A stretch of 13,039 bases of DNA, from the NCBI GenBank assembly GCA_027051265.1, contig JALTZH010000152.1:1-13039 (forward strand), read 5' to 3'. The position numbers and the translations under genes are program-made. The DNA is from an archaeon. Its GTDB lineage: Archaea; Hydrothermarchaeota; Hydrothermarchaeia; JALTZZ01; JALUTC01. The notes beneath the pieces are model-generated. The model did no database searches. It saw nothing but the letters and a program-made list of their open reading frames with translations, and was not told the DNA's origin. Below, piece by piece: positions 939-8,963 of this stretch; position 1 is the stretch's first letter, and each line of letters starts with the position of its first letter.

Positions 939-1166
939 TTTTAGCGGATGAAAATGTTCATTATAGTTTGATCAAGGAGTTAAAGAAATTGGGATAGATA
1001 TAATCTTTCACTACGAGTAGCGAGTGATTTCCGCAAAAAATATTTCAACTTCGCTGCTTCGCAACGGCTTCACCGTTTGTGTTTGTATCATTAAGCACGA
1101 TAGTTTTTATTAAATCTCGTAGCTGTAGGGATTATTAACGAAGATTCACGAATTAAGATTGTTTAA
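935..1166 (+). pseudogene. DUF5615-family PIN-like toxin remnant
   Basis: The ATG at 935 overlaps the DUF433 stop (ATGA). The first 20 codons read MILADENVHYSLIKELKKLG, which is the N-terminus of DUF5615 PIN-like nucleases; the ADEN motif carries the first acidic active-site residue. TAG at 995-997 ends this frame. Shifting by one base restores GIDIIFHYE before another stop at about 1018. Near the end, 1110-1166 reads NLVAVGIINEDSRIKIV and stop, which resembles the usual C-terminal strand of the family. The whole remnant is about 230 bp where an intact gene would be roughly 330 bp, so the middle, including the other catalytic acids, appears lost. The family's role would be RNA cleavage held in check by the DUF433 partner. 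The N-terminal match is strong and the C-terminal match tentative. Confidence 0.65.
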
Positions 1167-1605
1167 CTCCGTTTTTACAATAAAAATATAGAAGAAGAAA
1201 CCTCCACACATCATATATTGTCATATTTAAAAAGATCCTCATAAATAGCATTAAGAATGGATTGGTTGAGATCATTTTAAAGAGAATACTATCATAAATA
1301 CTTTTCAATAAAAAAATGAATGGAGTTTCTATCTTAAAATTATTTATAACAACATCCGTCTTGAAAAGGGGATATGCCAAGAGAATCATCAACTTCTTTG
1401 ATGCATTTATTCTTAGGATTTCTCTAAAGAGAAAGTATGTTAATATAAATCTTAAAGAAAATATAAATATGAAAAATAATAATATAAGAATAATTGCCGG
1501 AAATTTCATTGGAACACGACCTACAGGAAAACTCATTTCGATAAAACTCATAAAGCATAAAATAAGAATAATTTTCGAAGATAGAAGAAATTTATTGAGT
1601 TTCAT
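1153..1605 (-). CDS. Membrane protein, tandem paralogue 2 (150 aa)
   Basis: This is the last gene of the minus-strand operon that begins at 3110. I take the ATG at 1605 as the start because it lies 1 nt after the stop of the preceding gene; an upstream ATG at 1653 would overlap that gene. The protein has about four hydrophobic segments (near residues 10-30, 36-60, 72-82 and the C-terminal third) and ends with RFLLLYFYCKNG. It aligns by eye with the preceding gene: FIFSLRFILTYFLFREILRI here against FIAARVMLSWLLLKKLLEIS there, followed by similar Ile/Leu-rich stretches, and RFLLLYF against RVLLIYF at the end. The pair therefore looks like an old duplication. No known family is recognised. Its place behind an exported protein suggests a partner or self-protection role, which is inference. 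Its 3' end overlaps the DUF5615 remnant by 14 nt. Confidence 0.65.
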   Translation of the reverse strand: MKLNKFLLSSKIILILCFMSFIEMSFPVGRVPMKFPAIILILLFFIFIFSLRFILTYFLFREILRINASKKLMILLAYPLFKTDVVINNFKIETPFIFLLKSIYDSILFKMISTNPFLMLFMRIFLNMTIYDVWRFLLLYFYCKNGVKQS

Positions 1606-1606
1606 A

Positions 1607-2077
1607 TTATTTCTTCCCGATGAAATATATAAGAAGTACTCTTGAAGCCTCACAGAGCAAGATTCCCAGTAAAATCACCATAGTTTCCGGTAAATTTTTC
1701 TCGAACAATATCTTTGAAAAAATTGTATATGCTCCTATACCCTCTTTGTTTATTATTTCGGTTGCTTTCTCAATGCCGAAGACTATATCCCTGATTATGG
1801 CTTCAGTAGTAATGATCGGTATCGATAAAAAAACAATGTAAATTTTACCACTTATTTCTAACAGTTTTTTCAAGAGAAGCCATGAGAGCATGACTCTTGC
1901 TGCAATAAATACTATAAAAATATTTATAAACGGCATTGTTCCCATTATCTTAGTCCAGTGCTCAATATTTGCAATTCTATCACGTATCTCTAATAAATAA
2001 CCGACAAAAGACAACAGGTCAAGGATGAACATTGCGATTAAAATTAAAAAAATAAATATTATTCTATGGCTTTTCAT
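1607..2077 (-). CDS. Membrane protein, tandem paralogue 1 (156 aa)
   Basis: This is the middle gene of the operon. The longest frame starts at 2125, deep inside the upstream gene. The ATG at 2077 is better: it follows AAGGA at 4-5 nt spacing and overlaps the upstream stop by only 14 nt, implying translational coupling. The protein (MKSHRIIFIFLILIAMFILD onwards) has about four membrane segments, with a conserved central block (RVMLSWLLLKKLLEI, then Ile-rich) and a C-terminal SRVLLIYFIGKK. The same pattern recurs in the next gene, so the two are probably paralogues. I know of no family for them. Tight linkage to the exported 348-aa protein suggests that they help secrete it, anchor it or protect against it; none of these is shown by the sequence. 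Confidence 0.65.
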   Translation of the reverse strand: MKSHRIIFIFLILIAMFILDLLSFVGYLLEIRDRIANIEHWTKIMGTMPFINIFIVFIAARVMLSWLLLKKLLEISGKIYIVFLSIPIITTEAIIRDIVFGIEKATEIINKEGIGAYTIFSKILFEKNLPETMVILLGILLCEASRVLLIYFIGKK

Positions 2078-3110
2078 ATATTCCTTCATTAAGATATTCA
2101 TAATTACTATAGTCATTCTCTGCATCCATTCTGCTTCCCGTGGTATAACTTAACCATGTGTCATGCTTTGTTTTTGTCATCGAAGGGTTATTATCCTCTT
2201 CACCAATTGCATGGTTCCATACGTTAACGTAAAGTATCGGATGCTGGTAATATTTCATGAAAGTTGTTATTTTAGCTCGAAGATGAGGACCTATAAATGC
2301 ATTCCATGTCTCGTCCCCGCTGTAACATGCAGATACATCAAGAACTTTTCTTTCACCTTCTGTATATCTCAATAACCATAATTCTATGAATGAAAGTCTT
2401 TCCGATGTCCATGTTCGTTTATCAACCACGATAAAGAACGTTTCTATGTCTTCCATTCTACCCCATGTTGCTAATCTTAGAGTGTCATATATTATGTCTA
2501 AAATAGGATTTGGATAATCCTCATCAGCGAACACGAAAGTCACCTCGATAATATATTTTCCCGGCAGACTATAGCCATAGATTTTTTCATCGAAAACTTT
2601 TGCATATGTATCTATTAAACCGTTTCCATTATTTATATCTATAACTGGTTGATAAAGCCTAGGAAGGTATGCCGATGCTATTGAAGAACTTACGGTTGAG
2701 GAGATTTCTACAGATTCTGTAGACATTGTTCTATAATAAGTATATGCTTTAAATTTCTTAGCTTCTGCTTTAATAATTTCCTTAAAAGATTCAAATACTT
2801 TATCATCAACTCTTATACCGTAAAGTTTCATTAGAATCCTGTTGAATCTCTTTTTAAATTCTTGCCAATTTGCTCCTGTAAATTCCTCTTTTTCAACTAA
2901 AAGTTTTCTAATTTTATTTACATCTTCCCTGAATTCTTTATCTTTACTATAAAGCTTTATAAATTTTTGCTCAATCTTATCTAAATTTTTTATTTCTCGT
3001 TTGGTTATATCTTTTGGTTTATTGCCTATGGCAAAAACTGAAGCTAAACTACTTCCCAAAAACATCAATACCAAAAACACCACGCCCACGGCTTTGCTCA
3101 TACCATTCAT
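2064..3110 (-). CDS. Exported protein of unknown function (348 aa) from promoter cassette A
   Basis: The start at ATG 3110 is set by GGTGAT (3116-3121) 5 nt upstream, a good match to the archaeal anti-Shine-Dalgarno. Residues 1-28 are a Sec signal peptide (MNGMSKAVGVVFLVLMFLG, small residues, then SVFA before IGNK). Residues 30-115 are highly charged and helical. From about 130 onward the protein is mixed, rich in Tyr, Trp and Ser, with one cysteine (SACYSG) and a C-terminal block LYVNVWNHAIGEEDNNPSM. No catalytic motif or known family is evident. The signal peptide start, leader and promoter are nearly identical to those of the Cys-rich protein at 6734-7378, although the mature parts are unrelated. 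Two paralogous membrane proteins follow with tight overlaps. I infer a secreted effector or surface protein with dedicated partners. It is confidently a real exported gene; the role is unknown. Confidence 0.8.
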   Translation of the reverse strand: MNGMSKAVGVVFLVLMFLGSSLASVFAIGNKPKDITKREIKNLDKIEQKFIKLYSKDKEFREDVNKIRKLLVEKEEFTGANWQEFKKRFNRILMKLYGIRVDDKVFESFKEIIKAEAKKFKAYTYYRTMSTESVEISSTVSSSIASAYLPRLYQPVIDINNGNGLIDTYAKVFDEKIYGYSLPGKYIIEVTFVFADEDYPNPILDIIYDTLRLATWGRMEDIETFFIVVDKRTWTSERLSFIELWLLRYTEGERKVLDVSACYSGDETWNAFIGPHLRAKITTFMKYYQHPILYVNVWNHAIGEEDNNPSMTKTKHDTWLSYTTGSRMDAENDYSNYEYLNEGIYEKP

Positions 3111-3247
3111 TGTGCATCACCTTAATATTAATTAAACGAGTATATCCTATTTATTTATTTTGGAGCTAAAAGTTTTAGTTTATAGCTAAACGATTTAGTT
3201 TATAACTAAAACCTTTAAATGGAAAATAAAAATATATGATTTATTTA
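3059..3247 (-). repeat. Promoter/leader/signal-peptide cassette, copy A
   Basis: This block is nearly identical to 7322-7506 and, over its upstream part (3197-3247), matches 6361-6411 at 48 of 51 positions. Read on the minus strand it holds, in order, the stop codon of the decayed gene upstream, an AT-rich stretch, an inverted-repeat array with TATAAA, a 5' leader containing AATTAATATT, the GGTGAT ribosome binding site (3116-3121), and the first codons of a signal peptide. Similarity to copy B fades within the signal peptide, after about codon 16. It drives the gene starting at 3110. Confidence 0.85.
3166..3210. promoter_or_regulatory. Inverted-repeat operator/TATA array, copy A
   Basis: Three dyads stand side by side: CTAAAAGTTTTAG (3166-3178), TTTAGTTTATAGCTAAA (3174-3190, one imperfect arm position) and TTTAGTTTATAACTAAA (3194-3210, perfect 7-bp arms). 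The second and third start exactly 20 bp apart and each contains TATAAA on the minus strand, so a protein binding them would cover the TATA box. With a start site about 25 nt downstream, the leader before 3110 would be about 45-70 nt. The arrangement is seen directly; the operator role is inferred. Confidence 0.6.
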
Positions 3248-3627: not shown

Positions 3628-3924
3628 ATGGAGACAATATCTGTAAGAATTCCAAAAAGAATGAAGGAAGAAATAGAAGAAATTGCTAAGATAGAGAAAT
3701 TGGATAGAGCAAATGCTTTAAGAAAGGTTCTTGAAATGGGGATCAACGAATGGAAAAAGGAATATGCTGTTAAACTTCTTGCTGAAGGAAAGGTAACGCT
3801 TTGGAAAGCCGCATCAATAGCAGGAGTTTCTATTTGGGAGATGCTTGATATTATTGAAGCCAAGGGTATTTCTTTGCCAATAAGGGCTGAAGATGTTTTA
3901 GAGGATATAAAGGCTGCACTATGA
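3628..3924 (+). CDS. UPF0175-family antitoxin (VapB-like, 98 aa)
   Basis: Residues 1-45 (ETISVRIPKRMKEEIEEIAK onwards) look like a ribbon-helix-helix DNA-binding start. Residues 50-98 carry the UPF0175 signature: LLAEGKVTLWKAASIAGVS, WEMLDIIEAKGISLP, and the conserved end RAEDVLEDIKAAL. In this family the protein binds and neutralises a PIN-like toxin encoded just downstream and represses the operon. Here the toxin gene starts in a 4-nt ATGA overlap (3921-3924), the classic toxin-antitoxin layout. A palindrome at 3599-3619 sits on the presumed promoter. The length is normal and the frame intact, so the pair appears functional, unlike the DUF433 pair at 723-1166. The family call is strong; the exact target is not deducible. 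Confidence 0.88.
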   Translation: METISVRIPKRMKEEIEEIAKIEKLDRANALRKVLEMGINEWKKEYAVKLLAEGKVTLWKAASIAGVSIWEMLDIIEAKGISLPIRAEDVLEDIKAAL

Positions 3925-4439
3925 AGCTTATACTTAACGCATCACCTCTTATACACATAATCAGAGCTGGGTTTGGTAAGATTTTTGTTTTATTAAAAGA
4001 AGCTGGAATAGAGCTCATTGTTCCAAAAGAGGTTGTGAATGAAGTTGTTGAGAGAGGAAAGAACTATGCAGATTCTGCCGTTGTTCAAGATCTCATAGAA
4101 AAAGGAGTTATAAAAGTTGCCGAGATGGAAAACGAGAATATTGAAGTTTTTCTGAAGACTTATAGCGAAAAATCTTTACACAAGGGAGAGGTTGAAGTTC
4201 TTTTTCTTGCAAAGAAGCTTAACGGAATTGCTATAATAGATGAAAAACCTGCAAGAGCTGTTGGAAGGATTTTGGGAATAGAAGTTAGAGGAAGCGTTTA
4301 CCTGCTTATGCTTCTTTTCAAAAAAGGTTTCATTAACAAGGAGGAAGTTATTAAAGCATTTAAAAATATGGTGAAAACAGGATATAGGCTTAGTTCAAGA
4401 GATTTTACCATAATTATGGAAGAGCTTGAAAAGCTTTGA
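3921..4439 (+). CDS. DUF3368-family PIN-like toxin (VapC-like, 172 aa)
   Basis: The N-terminus LILNASPLIHIIRAG and the central blocks IELIVPKEVVNEVVERG, LHKGEVEVLFLAKKLNG and IAIIDEKPARAVGRILGIEV place this in DUF3368, a PIN-like nuclease family that serves as the toxin partner of UPF0175 proteins and probably cleaves RNA. Candidate acidic centre residues are the Glu pair in HKGEVEV and the Asp in IIDEKPAR. At the place of the first PIN aspartate this protein has Asn (LNASPLI), a substitution I believe is common in DUF3368. The length is typical. The start ATG overlaps the antitoxin stop, so the genes are translationally coupled. A T-rich stretch at 4468-4480 may end the transcript. Confidence 0.87.
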   Translation: MKLILNASPLIHIIRAGFGKIFVLLKEAGIELIVPKEVVNEVVERGKNYADSAVVQDLIEKGVIKVAEMENENIEVFLKTYSEKSLHKGEVEVLFLAKKLNGIAIIDEKPARAVGRILGIEVRGSVYLLMLLFKKGFINKEEVIKAFKNMVKTGYRLSSRDFTIIMEELEKL

Positions 4440-4937: not shown

Positions 4938-5702
4938 TTACTTCATAACTACAACCTTATCTATGACCATGTTATACTTTACACCCGGCCACTCTAAGAT
5001 ATATTCTGCTTTTAGTAACAGTTTTGTTTCTTTATCTATCAATAAAATCTTTTCTAGGTTTTCTGATTTTATTTTAACCTTAAAAACTTCTCTGTTCATG
5101 TAATTCTCTATGCCTATGACCTCAATAACTACATCTTGCTCTCTGAGCTTAAAATTTTCATGCAGATTAAGCATCCAGTATGAAAAGAAAGGAGATGCTA
5201 AAAGCTCATATTTTCTAAGTTTATTCTCATCTTCTATTGTTTCTTTATATCCGTTTCTTTCAAACTCAGCCCGTATTAATCTGCCTTTGGAATTGTAAAC
5301 AAATATCTTTTTTCCTTCAAAATATTCTTCAGATGGCTTCAAAATTCTCCCATTCACCTCTCCAGTTATAACATAACCAATCTTCGTTTTTTCAACAATA
5401 TAAATTTCATGGATTTCAGAAATTTTTTCACCTTTGAGTGCCATCCAATGAGGTTTTATTCCAAAAATTTTGTAAATAAATTTTAATACTTTGAATTTTA
5501 AATTCTCTGGTTCCTTATACCTATATCCTGTCACATTATATTCAACTTTTTTTATAAGTTTCAAAGGATTATCATCTAGATTCCTATCTATCCATATATT
5601 TTCCGTTTTCTTTTCATTAACATTTGCTTTGTCTAAACATGAACTGAAAATGATAAAAATTAAAAAGAAAAAACTAAATACTTTCAACAATTGTCGTGCC
5701 AT
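4938..5702 (-). CDS. Putative lipoprotein (254 aa), candidate partner/immunity protein
   Basis: I choose ATG 5702 over the longer frame from 5726 because it begins directly with a lipoprotein signal peptide, MARQLLKVFSFFFLIFIIFS, then SCLDKAN, with Cys22 as the lipidation residue (lipobox FSSC, slightly off consensus). The mature part is rich in Lys and Glu and in beta-prone segments (VIEVIGIENYMNREVFKVKI, then an EKILLIDKETKLLLKAEYIL-like pair of strands). It would sit on the outer face of the membrane. No family is recognised with certainty. The gene overlaps the exported gene upstream by 19 nt, implying coupled translation, and a decayed copy of the same arrangement follows at 4863-4892. 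An immunity or anchoring function for the exported protein is my inference. The gene itself looks intact. Confidence 0.7.
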   Translation of the reverse strand: MARQLLKVFSFFFLIFIIFSSCLDKANVNEKKTENIWIDRNLDDNPLKLIKKVEYNVTGYRYKEPENLKFKVLKFIYKIFGIKPHWMALKGEKISEIHEIYIVEKTKIGYVITGEVNGRILKPSEEYFEGKKIFVYNSKGRLIRAEFERNGYKETIEDENKLRKYELLASPFFSYWMLNLHENFKLREQDVVIEVIGIENYMNREVFKVKIKSENLEKILLIDKETKLLLKAEYILEWPGVKYNMVIDKVVVMK

Positions 5703-6360
5703 ACATAAACTTCTTCTGGCCACCATCCTCTCAGGAATGCATACCAGTTAAACTCCGGACTTGGCTCTGGTCCCTCACTATGATATTCTGGTTTACCATC
5801 ATTATCAAAATCTCCCCAGTAATGCACTTGATAGCTATAACCATAATCCAACCACCTTCTGTAATCACCACCGTAATAATCAGCCACCTTGTGATAGCTC
5901 TTTAGTATTATTTCGTTTTCAAGCTCGGAAACGTTGCTAAATTCCTTTATGTGCCATCCGAGCACTGGATCTGGATTTGTGCATCCCCAGAGGCATGCCA
6001 CAGCTCCTTCCACTTTGCAGTCTGGATTCGGATCATGCCAACTGCAGGTGCTTGAACTTAAGCCAAGGTCTTCATACTCAGGAATCCCAAAATTATAACC
6101 TATATACCAGCAGGAGTAGGTGTTACTTCTGTTAACAATTTTGCTCTTGCAGGATTAAAATTTTTTCTTTTTCAGCTGTAGGCCAGGCTACAAAATTCTC
6201 TCACTTTTTTGATATCCTCTTTTGTTAACTTCTGTTTGAGTAGCTCGGTGTCTGTTATCTTACAGTGTATCTCTTCTATCTCTCTAACAATTTCTTTGAT
6301 TTTATCCGGTTTTGTCTTTTCTTTTTTCTCTGCGGGTTGATATACTGTTCCTTGTGAATC
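5684..6360 (-). pseudogene. Decayed Cys/Trp-rich exported protein, N-terminus deleted
   Basis: The coding sense starts abruptly at 6360 (DSQGTVYQPAEKKEKTKPDK), right against the cassette copy C fragment, with a stop upstream and no start codon or signal peptide. The frame runs to EDIKKV, then shifts near 6200 to ENFVAWPTAEKEKILI, then shifts near 6155 to SCKSKIVNRSNTYSCWYIGY. It then stays open through SSSTCSWHDPNPDCKVEGAV, ACLWGCTNPDPVLGWH and HYWGDFDNDGKPEYHSEGPE to WWPEEVYVWHDNC and TGA at 5684-5686. It is unlike the other two exported proteins, but has the same type of charged helical N-terminal part. It carries at least seven cysteines and many Trp and Tyr residues. The deletion removed the leader, start and signal peptide, so it should be dead as it stands. 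A GTG at 6013 could start the last 109 codons, but this is unlikely. Confidence 0.7.
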
Positions 6361-6411
6361 AGTTTATAACTAAAAATTTTAAGTGGAAAATAAAAATATA
6401 TGATTTATTTA
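6361..6411 (-). repeat. Promoter cassette, truncated copy C
   Basis: This 51-bp fragment matches 3197-3247 at 48 of 51 positions, including the stop codon TAA of the gene before it (6409-6411). It keeps only the upstream end of the cassette: the AT-rich stretch and most of the third inverted repeat (AGTTTATAACTAAA). It then breaks at 6360/6361 into the body of the decayed exported gene. The rest of the operator array, the leader, the ribosome binding site and the signal peptide codons are missing, a clean deletion junction. Confidence 0.8.
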
Positions 6412-6720
6412 GTGTTTTCGATATCTTTTAATGGTTATTATTAGGAGTGCAACGATAAGAAAAATCGAAAGTATTATGAGGTATGTCTTTTTCCAGAAGA
6501 TTATCGCATAATATATTATAAGGGGAAATAAAACAATGCTGAATAGTCTAAAATATTTTTTAAACTTTGAATGAGCTTCCGATAAGGAATCGAATAATCC
6601 GGATAATCCTATTAATAAGAGAATAACATATTCCTTAGATTCATAAAACATACCAATCGCCCCCAAAAAAATTAAAATAATAGATGTAAAAAATGTATAA
6701 TAATAAAGTTTCCTCTCCAT
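6409..6720 (-). CDS. Four-helix membrane protein (103 aa), candidate immunity protein
   Basis: It lies 13 nt after the Cys-rich exported gene and has its own ribosome binding site (GTGAGG about 9 nt before ATG 6720), so it is the second gene of that operon. The protein has four hydrophobic segments: near residues 8-25 (YTFFTSIILIFLGAIGMF), 30-45, 57-73 (FRLFSIVLFPLIIYYAI) and 80-96 (YLIILSIFLIVALLIITI). A charged loop (SEAHSKFKKYF) and a basic tail (KRYRKH) complete it. Small multi-helix membrane proteins encoded directly after a secreted antimicrobial peptide are often the producer's immunity protein or a secretion helper. That is the likeliest reading if the upstream product is an archaeocin. 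No sequence family is recognised. The stop codon lies within cassette copy C. Confidence 0.65.
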   Translation of the reverse strand: MERKLYYYTFFTSIILIFLGAIGMFYESKEYVILLLIGLSGLFDSLSEAHSKFKKYFRLFSIVLFPLIIYYAIIFWKKTYLIILSIFLIVALLIITIKRYRKH

Positions 6721-6733
6721 AATAAAACCTCAC

Positions 6734-7378
6734 TTATAACATATCACAACACCATTGACTTCCTAAACAGCAACAACACTGTAAACAGACTATTGCAGCA
6801 GCTGGACACCTTGAAAGAAGACAGTATATACATGCTGGTATCGTTGCACCTCCAGCACATGAAGCTGCACAAGCAATACATGAAGCAGCAGCACCTGCAC
6901 ATGCGAGACACGTTAATATACAGCCGCCCGTTATAACTACTGAATAACTATTAGTTTCTAAATTATATGCGTAAATTATTTCTCTTGTTTCGTTTGTAAT
7001 TTTTGATTTAAATGGTATTATTACACCTATAATTTCTATTTCATGAGAATAATTACTTAAGAAGAGTAATACTTTAACAACTTTGGCTTCCTTTATATTT
7101 GGTTTATATCCCTGTTTTATCAACTCTTTCTTAAGCTTCTTTACCTTATCGTTTTTCAAAGCCTCTGCTATAGCTTTGTTTTTTTCTTTTCCGGTTAGCT
7201 CAATTATTGTAACGTTGGTATTTTTTAAGCCGCTACAGCAAGTGTTGCATATGTTTTCGCTGGAGTTTATTGTTATGTTCTCTATTTCATCGCTTATGGC
7301 AAAAGCCGGGGCAAAAATGCCTATAAAAAATATCAATAACAAAAACACCACGCCTACGGTTTTGCTCATACCATTCAT
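6734..7378 (-). CDS. Exported Cys-rich precursor, halocin C8-like archaeocin candidate (214 aa)
   Basis: ATG 7378 follows GGTGAT (7384-7389) at 5 nt. Residues 1-27 are a signal peptide (MNGMSKTVGVVFLLLIFF, then APAFA). Residues 43-48 (ICNTCC) and 55-148 form an N-terminal domain: VTIIELTGKEKNKAIAEALK, KLKKELIKQGYKPNIKEAKV, GVIIPFKSK, and Tyr-rich strands. Then comes ITGG (149-152) and a 62-residue tail with 16 cysteines among Ala, Gly and Ile: CILTCLACAG, SCIACAASC, ACIYC, VCLQCCCC, QWCC. This order, a signal followed by a larger domain and a compact hydrophobic Cys-rich C-terminus, resembles the halocin C8 precursor, where a protease separates an immunity domain from a Cys-rich antimicrobial peptide. 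By analogy the tail may be released near ITGG and stabilised by disulfides. A four-helix membrane gene follows. Metal binding or a surface structural protein are alternatives. Layout is seen; activity is inferred. Confidence 0.75.
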   Translation of the reverse strand: MNGMSKTVGVVFLLLIFFIGIFAPAFAISDEIENITINSSENICNTCCSGLKNTNVTIIELTGKEKNKAIAEALKNDKVKKLKKELIKQGYKPNIKEAKVVKVLLFLSNYSHEIEIIGVIIPFKSKITNETREIIYAYNLETNSYSVVITGGCILTCLACAGAAASCIACAASCAGGATIPACIYCLLSRCPAAAIVCLQCCCCLGSQWCCDML

Positions 7379-7506
7379 TTCACATCACCTTTAATATTAA
7401 TTAAACGAGTATACCCTATTTATTTATTTTGGAGCTAAAAGTTTTAGTTTATAGCTAAACGATTTAGTTTATAACTAAAGATTTTAAGTGGAAAATAAAA
7501 ATATAT
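7322..7506 (-). repeat. Promoter/leader/signal-peptide cassette, copy B
   Basis: This is the second complete copy of the cassette at 3059-3247 and drives the Cys-rich precursor. The leader, GGTGAT site (7384-7389), start codon and first signal-peptide codons are nearly unchanged, apart from a few substitutions and one extra T in the leader. Similarity ends upstream at about 7506, where copies A and C continue as GATTTATTTA but this copy turns into the promoter of the divergent prenyltransferase gene. Confidence 0.85.
7435..7479. promoter_or_regulatory. Inverted-repeat operator/TATA array, copy B
   Basis: The same three dyads as at 3166-3210 occur at 7435-7447, 7443-7459 and 7463-7479, base for base identical and with the same 20-bp step. 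They lie between the minus-strand Cys-rich gene and the plus-strand gene at 7529. Because the dyads read TATAAA or TTATAA on either strand, a bound protein could affect both directions. The conservation of dyads and spacing supports a regulatory role; no binding protein is identified. Confidence 0.6.
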
Positions 7507-7528: not shown

Positions 7529-8224
7529 ATGAAGTGTATTCTCGCATCCATACCCACCGCAATTTCCGGAACAATAAGACTTTACATAGCTTTTATCCTC
7601 ACTCAACAGGAACCAAAATATACACTTATACTCGGTGCCTTCTTCCTGATATTAAGCATCTATTCCCTAGATAGACTTAAAGATTACAACGAAAGGACAA
7701 AAATTCCTGCTTTTTTTTATATTTTAGGAACAGTCTTATATTTTATTGAGAATAAATTAGAGGTTCCAATAATTCTTATAATAACTGGCTATCTATATAC
7801 TTTTGGAATGAGAAATCTGAGATTAAAGGCTGGATATGGGATAAAAAACATCGTCGTTGGATTTTCTTGGGGTTTTTCTATAGCATATTCTTTGGAATCT
7901 TTCAATAAGTTTATTTTCATCTTTTATTTCTTCAAACTGTTTATAAATTCCGCATACTTTGATTTAAAGGATATTAAAGAAGATTGCATAAAAACATTAC
8001 CAAAATTGTTGGGAAAAGGATTTAAACCTTTTCTTTTAGTGTTGAACATCTTTTATCATTTAATAGCGATTGTGGAGTTTTCGCTAAACATATTACTAAT
8101 ATCAAGCTTAGTTTTAACGCAAATAGCTATTATGTACAACAATGAGAAACGTTCAAGGCTTATTATTGATTTTGAAGCAATTTTTTCATATCTTTTATAT
8201 TTATTCTATAAGAATTTTTTTTAA
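7529..8224 (+). CDS. UbiA-superfamily prenyltransferase-like membrane protein (231 aa)
   Basis: UbiA enzymes are membrane proteins that move a prenyl chain onto an aromatic or other acceptor using Mg-bound Asp-rich motifs. Here the first motif appears as SLDRLKDYNERTKIP (Asp48, Asp52, with Glu55), somewhat degenerate from NDxxDxxxD. The second is well kept: YFDLKDIKEDCIKTLPKLLG (Asp145, Asp148, Asp152, followed by the typical TLP and Gly). Between them, YGIKNIVVGFSWGFSIAYS matches the conserved middle of the family. Seven or so hydrophobic segments are visible. At 231 aa it is shorter than the usual 280-300, mainly at the C-terminal end. The acceptor (quinone, lipid, heme or other) cannot be told. 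Its 3' end overlaps the convergent regulator gene by 62 bp. It starts from a promoter back-to-back with the Cys-rich operon. Confidence 0.75.
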   Translation: MKCILASIPTAISGTIRLYIAFILTQQEPKYTLILGAFFLILSIYSLDRLKDYNERTKIPAFFYILGTVLYFIENKLEVPIILIITGYLYTFGMRNLRLKAGYGIKNIVVGFSWGFSIAYSLESFNKFIFIFYFFKLFINSAYFDLKDIKEDCIKTLPKLLGKGFKPFLLVLNIFYHLIAIVEFSLNILLISSLVLTQIAIMYNNEKRSRLIIDFEAIFSYLLYLFYKNFF

Positions 8225-8963
8225 CATATTTAAAAAGATCAATTCCCCATATTTTGCATTTCTTGGAGTAGCATATGAAATCCCTTTTATAATCAAAAAC
8301 CCCATTCCTAAAGAAAAATGATATACAGAAAAATATATCAGTAACTATAAATGAAAATTTAAACTTTTTCTTTGAAATATAAAAGGAAACGTTTTCATGC
8401 TTCAAGCCTTCCTCAAGTTCTTTTTTATAGTTTTTAGTTATAAAATCGAATATATCCTTGGATACCACAATCTCGATTTTTCTGTTTTCTTTTGCAAGCT
8501 TTAGGAATAAACCTATATACTCTGGGAAGAATATAGAAGAGTATCCATAGATTTCTTTTGATTTCATCAGATTTTCTATAAATTCTCCATGTGGTGTATA
8601 TATCTCACACTCTTGCTCAATCAATTTCATATCCGAAAGTTCATGAAACCTTACAACGAGGTTTTCCGGTATATCATCCATATAATATAGGTTGAGAAAA
8701 TCTCCAAAAATTTTAAGGAACTTTTCATGGTTTCTCATGATTTCACATATTTTAAGCAAATATTCTCCTTTGGGAAGTATCTTAACAAAATCTTTATCCT
8801 CTTCTATTAGTCCGTAATTTATCATTTTATTTAAAGTTTGTCTGAGAGATGAAGATGAAACGTTTAAAAAATCTCTTAGTTCTCTTCTTGTCAGTGACTT
8901 TTTTAATAAAATTTTTAAGATATCAATCACTCTTTTAGATGATAAAATATTAATGAGTTTCAT
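8163..8963 (-). CDS. Winged-helix regulator of the FilR1/DUF1724 type (266 aa)
   Basis: Residues 1-65 form a winged helix: VIDILKILLKKSLTRRELRD, then FLNVSSSSLRQTLNKMINYG as the recognition part and LIEEDKDFVKILPKGEYLL as the wing. Residues 90-230 match the C-terminal FilR1 domain of archaeal regulators, with IPENLVVRFHELSDMKLIEQ, HGEFIENLMKSKEIYGYSSI, FFPEYIGLFLKLAKENRKIE and IVVSKDIFDFI. This family is common in methanogens and Archaeoglobi and usually acts as a sensor-repressor; the ligand here is unknown. A TATA-like box lies about 25 nt upstream, so the message is probably leaderless. The gene is convergent with the UbiA-like gene and overlaps it by 62 bp. It is the only obvious stand-alone DNA-binding regulator near the cassette operators, so it is a candidate to control them, without direct evidence. 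Confidence 0.85.
   Translation of the reverse strand: MKLINILSSKRVIDILKILLKKSLTRRELRDFLNVSSSSLRQTLNKMINYGLIEEDKDFVKILPKGEYLLKICEIMRNHEKFLKIFGDFLNLYYMDDIPENLVVRFHELSDMKLIEQECEIYTPHGEFIENLMKSKEIYGYSSIFFPEYIGLFLKLAKENRKIEIVVSKDIFDFITKNYKKELEEGLKHENVSFYISKKKFKFSFIVTDIFFCISFFFRNGVFDYKRDFICYSKKCKIWGIDLFKYVKKNSYRINIKDMKKLLQNQ

Follow-up and report, generated by a model that had tools for sequence, protein, structure and literature searches.

The precursor gene listed in Table 1, located in a window of 13,039 nt (the whole stretch of DNA analysed), probably gives rise, as part of a modular cassette, to an archaeocin, a secreted antimicrobial peptide rich in disulfides; we put the probability of this reading at about 0.75. 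Comparison of the copies of this cassette showed that they have the predicted operator, promoter, signal peptide and prodomain in common, and that the core and the downstream multi-TM membrane protein vary jointly. The archaeocin cassette is supported by the halocin C8 core of a paralogue on contig C40 of the same genome, matches to cores of a second class (class II) in other genomes, the pairing of cores with TM proteins, the occurrence of leaderless cores, the set of shared operators and the disulfide-exchange genes of relatives. To our knowledge, few archaeal antimicrobial peptides are known beyond haloarchaea and Sulfolobus.

Table 1. Features of the window, with positions, strand and the basis of each assignment
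Feature	Position	Strand	Basis or remark
Pair of small membrane proteins (172 aa, 166 aa), second cassette	1153..2125	-	G002 orthologues in same order
Exported protein of 348 aa, second cassette, same signal peptide and operator	2064..3110	-	G002 orthologue 78% identical
Two operator copies, upstream of second cassette	3174..3210	.	Pattern search
Predicted lipoprotein of 262 aa, possibly a further operon gene	4938..5726	-	Position and lipobox only
Decayed cassette, with frameshifted ORF fragments and a remnant of the operator/promoter	5684..6404	-	Promoter repeat 6361-6404
Candidate immunity protein, 103 aa, about 3 TM segments	6409..6720	-	14 nt after precursor
Precursor, 214 aa: signal peptide, prodomain and Cys-rich core	6734..7378	-	ORF, translation, homologues
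Cys-rich core, residues 149-214, class II, CC..G.QWCCD motif	6737..6934	-	Similarity to L081 core
Prodomain, residues 28-148	6935..7297	-	Motif ELxGxEKNxxIAxALxxxxVxxL, alignments, model
Signal peptide, residues 1-27	7298..7378	-	Similar or near-identical in further exported proteins of the same genome
Third operator copy, degenerate; overlaps an A/T stretch resembling a TATA box	7423..7439	.	Upstream of precursor
Second operator copy TTTAGCTATAAACTAAA, 20 bp on	7443..7459	.	Upstream of precursor
Operator palindrome TTTAGTTATAAACTAAA	7463..7479	.	Upstream of precursor
UbiA-like prenyltransferase homologue, divergent from precursor	7529..8224	+	PRK13591 101.6 bits, under its cut-off
FilR1-type regulator (winged HTH and FilR1_middle), candidate operon regulator	8163..8963	-	PF08350 111.8 bits

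The precursor ORF starts with ATG, with the sequence GGTGA a short way 5' of it. Its translation agrees with the preliminary description, which had noted a signal peptide, an N-terminal domain, an ITGG segment and 62 residues with 16 cysteines. The signal peptide (about residues 1-27) is of the Sec type, ends in ..APAFA followed by IS, and carries no twin arginine, the number of arginines in these 27 residues being zero. Three cysteines (44, 47, and 48) are present at the start of the prodomain. ITGG occupies residues 149-152, and the 16 cysteines of the following segment (residues 153-214) are located at positions 153, 157, 160, 167, 170, 174, 183, 186, 191, 198, 201-204, 210, and 211. The four CxxC pairs and the CCCC run (201-204) reported earlier are indeed present, the pairs becoming five (at 157, 167, 183, 198, and 201) if overlaps are counted. 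Cysteine accounts on average for 1.0% of the remaining proteins of the window, and at this rate the binomial chance of at least 16 cysteines in 66 residues is about 4e-18, in line with the earlier remark that the composition is very unusual. The same cysteine pattern recurs in homologues from other archaea, indicating that the precursor is a real, conserved gene.

Searched against NCBIfam, Pfam and PHROGs, the precursor yielded no credible family, and by sequence it has no match in PDB. No relatives of it were found in phage, plasmid and viral collections. The class II protein L081 has no relative among viral contigs. The prodomain was modelled by AlphaFold2 with moderate confidence (pLDDT 67-89 in ten-residue blocks of residues 61-150). 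The prediction proposed earlier for residues 149-214 yielded no usable core structure, the ten-residue core blocks having pLDDT of 25-43. Foldseek searches gave no significant fold match; a monellin-like fold was among the insignificant ones.

The genome carrying the window is a fragmented MAG of an uncultured archaeon (1.46 Mb, 257 contigs). Contig C40 of this genome encodes a paralogue of 245 aa, which is 63% identical to the precursor across residues 1-140 and diverges thereafter, its C-terminus matching the halocin C8 domain TIGR04449 (37.6 bits, cut-off 24). The presence of the same N-terminal part with a different, TIGR04449-matching C-terminus suggests that Cys-rich cores are exchangeable on one leader-prodomain. 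At the DNA level, the 5' flanking regions and roughly the first 240 coding bases of the window and C40 genes are 80-100% identical and the identity is lower beyond, as expected for module shuffling. A third precursor of this genome is found on contig C74. The first 127 bases are common to contigs C40 and C74, suggestive of a k=127 assembly graph branching at this point, and these contigs may represent further loci, or alleles from co-existing strains.

In a single-sequence search, the prodomain matched C40 (1.2e-45) and genome G028 (7e-9). The prodomain profile was built of six sequences including that of the window, which therefore matches the profiles by construction; with this profile, matches at E 1e-5 or better were obtained in 33 of the 392 genomes of a different phylum (that of Archaeoglobaceae), some of the weak matches among them being supported by the signal peptide alone. 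The matching loci include one Archaeoglobaceae MAG and Archaeoglobus sp. UBA230, consistent with the occurrence outside haloarchaea that had been proposed for such precursors. Another prodomain-bearing family, f36, probably represents Methanosarcinaceae.

At least three core classes follow related prodomains, namely the halocin C8-like class, class II, and the class of G28/UBA230. The halocin C8-like cores of C40, G104, G62, G250, and G362 cluster together, and the NCBI TIGR04449 profile confirms C40 and L069, the latter a precursor with a similar prodomain that scores 24.0 bits (at the cut-off), L076 reaching 20.9 bits (just under it). Class II comprises the window core and those of five genomes of another phylum (G219, G267, G444, G311, and G193), its signature being a C-terminal CC..G.QWCCD, from which G267 and G311 deviate. 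The window core is 52% identical over 58 columns to the L081 core of G219 (Z 11.7 versus shuffles); with the five class II cores Z ranges from 5.1 to 11.7, and none of 500 shuffles reaches any of these scores. Against the C40 core Z is only 0.4. Thus, the previously noted resemblance to halocin C8 holds for the family, through C40 and the borderline L069, and fails for the window core itself. Likewise, the profile search that had been suggested against halocin C8-like families gave nothing for the window protein: the precursor has no match to TIGR04449 up to E 10, and its prodomain has none to PF22862 (Hac8_like_N). The latter profile has no match in the rest of this genome either, and its match in G267 is weak (16.2 bits, cut-off 27).

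Leaderless core ORFs occur at L006:1819-2067 and L050:6834-7031. The second of them, in UBA230, encodes a 65-aa core very similar to the C-terminus of a full precursor (14659-15366) located about 8 kb off, and resembles a stored cassette.

The TM protein encoded downstream of the precursor scored 23.5 bits (E 2.9e-6) against a profile of five class II-adjacent TM proteins; none of 1000 shuffles reached this score, the best of them giving 7.9. Its similarity to the TM protein of G219 is high (Z 9.7), and to that of C40 negligible (Z 0.3). The membrane protein of C40 does not match the class II-neighbour profile, and the sole other TM protein near significance belongs to G336, the precursor of which is close to class II. 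Of the 20 full-length precursors tested, 19 are accompanied by a small adjoining ORF that has at least two hydrophobic segments and begins within -52 to +69 nt of the precursor stop, as is one split precursor; the exception by this rule is G231. Across 19 loci, and with the contribution of the prodomains removed, similarity of the cores correlates with similarity of the TM proteins (partial rho 0.35, permutation p 0.0005), and a smaller residual effect of the prodomain was also seen (0.17, p 0.03), these p values being guides only, since the loci are partly kin by descent. Judging from these comparisons, each core moves together with its membrane protein, like toxin and immunity. Such an organization, in which a variable effector and a variable neighbour follow a constant N-terminal part, resembles that of polymorphic toxins, which share a common N-terminal export part, swapped C-terminal effectors, a variable partner gene and orphan C-terminal modules. 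In contrast to them, the predicted effector encoded in the window is a small Cys-rich peptide rather than an enzymatic domain, and there is no large carrier protein.

In halocin C8 of haloarchaea, the precursor ProC8 is exported via Tat and processed into the immunity protein HalI and the mature peptide (PMC11509114). A variant of the archaeocin reading, analogous to this, assigns immunity to the prodomain and another role to the membrane protein, as did the preliminary description for the N-terminal domain. This variant is unlikely, since the proteins identical by 63% over residues 1-140 carry unrelated cores, as do related prodomains elsewhere, while the downstream membrane proteins track the core; co-variation of core and neighbour behind a constant N-terminal part argues against the prodomain as a specific immunity factor. 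The window precursor has in common with halocin C8 a predicted export signal, a long N-terminal domain and a C-terminal Cys-rich hydrophobic peptide, and the C40 paralogue combines a TIGR04449 core with a window-type prodomain. It differs in its Sec-like signal, the separate candidate immunity gene, and the position of its core and prodomain outside TIGR04449 and PF22862, respectively. Another related arrangement is the Gram-positive "putative immunity/bacteriocin fusion" TIGR04450: a protein with this name, encoded on a staphylococcal plasmid, can be aligned with 93% of the length of the C40 paralogue (26% identity, E 1e-3), whereas the window protein has no plasmid match, and the cores are unlike.

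The survey of archaeal conflict loci published in mBio by Makarova et al. in 2019 reportedly enlarged the halocin C8 family in archaea. As cited from that work, the transcriptional regulator arCOG02808 is found near archaeocin genes (PMC8416519). The survey is also cited in PMC12352652. Apart from any overlap with those loci in the class II core, the operator and the membrane-protein pairing, the window gene would represent a new form of halocin C8-like Cys-rich archaeocin.

The operator pattern TTTAGTTNNNANCTAAA was found in only five upstream regions of the 1.46-Mb genome, every one of them preceding a gene whose signal peptide is of the precursor's type; the expectation is about 0.3 matches per strand, and searching with the reversed pattern as a control gave 0. 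The tandem operator is also present in 9 of the 392 genomes of the other phylum, all of them Archaeoglobaceae, mostly before genes with such signal peptides. Since the remaining targets of the operator are not obviously peptides, the regulon may reach beyond antagonism. The exported targets in Archaeoglobaceae include a C39-like peptidase with an inhibitor-like prodomain (L086 1498-2607) and its probable relative (L119 281-1405), a 387-aa protein (L116 206-1369), and a protein of 291 aa (L049 4117-4992), in which a hydrophobic stretch is rich in glycine.

The presence of further exported proteins in the regulon is compatible with a different role of the Cys-rich C-terminus, as a module of the cell surface that is structural or binds metal (such as a sheath or matrix peptide held by cross-links), with the membrane protein as its anchor; the cysteine density and the CxxC pairs would also suit metal binding. 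We regard this as decidedly improbable, because halocin C8 domains occur in some of the precursors sharing this prodomain, the cores are swapped among loci and paired with specific membrane proteins, and leaderless cores and decayed cassettes fit conflict systems better.

Relatives of the FilR1-type regulator adjoin precursors or operators in L047 (from the relative G002), L037 (G028), L050 (UBA230), and L106 (G165). In FilR1 of Methanosaeta, DNA is bound through an ArsR-related domain, and its own promoter is under its control (PMC3991700). The regulator of the window would act on the phased operators. The UbiA-like gene has an equal position in L037 and L047 and also adjoins the precursor in L106. 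The two genes lie side by side next to precursors in three lineages (window 7529-8963, L037 3346-4806, and L106 6007-7781), and a prenylated signal is conceivable. That the cores themselves are secreted pheromones, for which the downstream membrane protein and the FilR1-type regulator would be the sensors, is very improbable despite the presence of the UbiA-like gene next to the regulator in these lineages and the role of FilR1 as response regulator of FilI, the maker of carboxyl-acyl homoserine lactones in Methanosaeta (PMC3991700), because varied cores under one operator in one genome better fit effectors, the core of the C40 paralogue is halocin C8-like, and no sensor domain is recognised in the membrane proteins encoded downstream.

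Genes with DsbD_TM and thioredoxin domains are located in the precursor neighbourhoods of three genomes (L095, L096, and L107), and in L037 the membrane protein gene is followed by one for a lipoprotein fused to thioredoxin. At the window locus no disulfide-exchange gene was observed, and VKOR was not found in its genome. A 104-aa protein in L037 was considered as a VKOR-type oxidant and rejected: it is VKOR-like mainly by eye, with 13.2 bits against a cut-off of 27.5 and no PDB match. Given this weak match and the negative result for the genome of the window, VKOR is not counted as evidence for the window. The window precursor has no adjoining transporter or dedicated protease gene. Extracellular serine proteases can activate a haloarchaeal precursor, according to a 2026 study (PMC12893001), and a serine-protease-like ORF in G002 may be relevant here. 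Its motif GDSGSPVF was recognised by eye, and it has no Pfam match. At the orthologous locus of G002 (L047 4966-6081), the operator is followed by two serine-protease-like ORFs, which take the place of the Cys-rich precursor.

In the proposed archaeocin pathway, expression would be controlled by the FilR1-type regulator through the phased operators, and the precursor would be exported by Sec, with the prodomain holding the core inactive or assisting its folding. Oxidation of the core would produce a disulfide-rich peptide, to be released by protease cleavage near ITGG (residue 149). The freed peptide of about 6 kDa would attack related cells, with the membrane as its probable target, and the producer would be protected by the 103-aa membrane protein.

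It may be an even bet that archaea of at least two phyla possess a combinatorial peptide arsenal of this kind, governed by a FilR1-type regulator and phased operators, in which the operator-leader-prodomain unit is recombined onto core/immunity pairs and class II constitutes an undescribed family of peptide antibiotics. A comparable pattern is known from some animal venom genes, in which the leader is conserved and the Cys-rich toxin diversified. A class II core, a candidate immunity partner and a searchable regulatory sequence are here linked in Archaeoglobaceae, the phylum of the window and probable Methanosarcinaceae. Genetically tractable laboratory strains exist in these groups. Antagonism between archaea in anoxic environments is thereby opened to direct tests, and the disulfide-rich peptides could be very stable.

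The remaining genes of the window include the second cassette, the 348-aa protein of which has a paralogue on C40 and a sub-threshold match to the Lsa23 adhesion profile; its model is poor (mean pLDDT 46). The 262-aa lipoprotein was compared with the lipoproteins encoded beside methanogen-type precursors, and homology to them is not supported, its score of 2.4 bits lying under the best shuffle. A possible toxin-antitoxin module, consisting of a UPF0175/VapB-like and a second small protein, is encoded on the opposite strand inside the island (3628-4439, plus strand). The decayed cassette has an apparent parallel in G002, which holds a remnant of the same decayed gene (L047:9065-9775).
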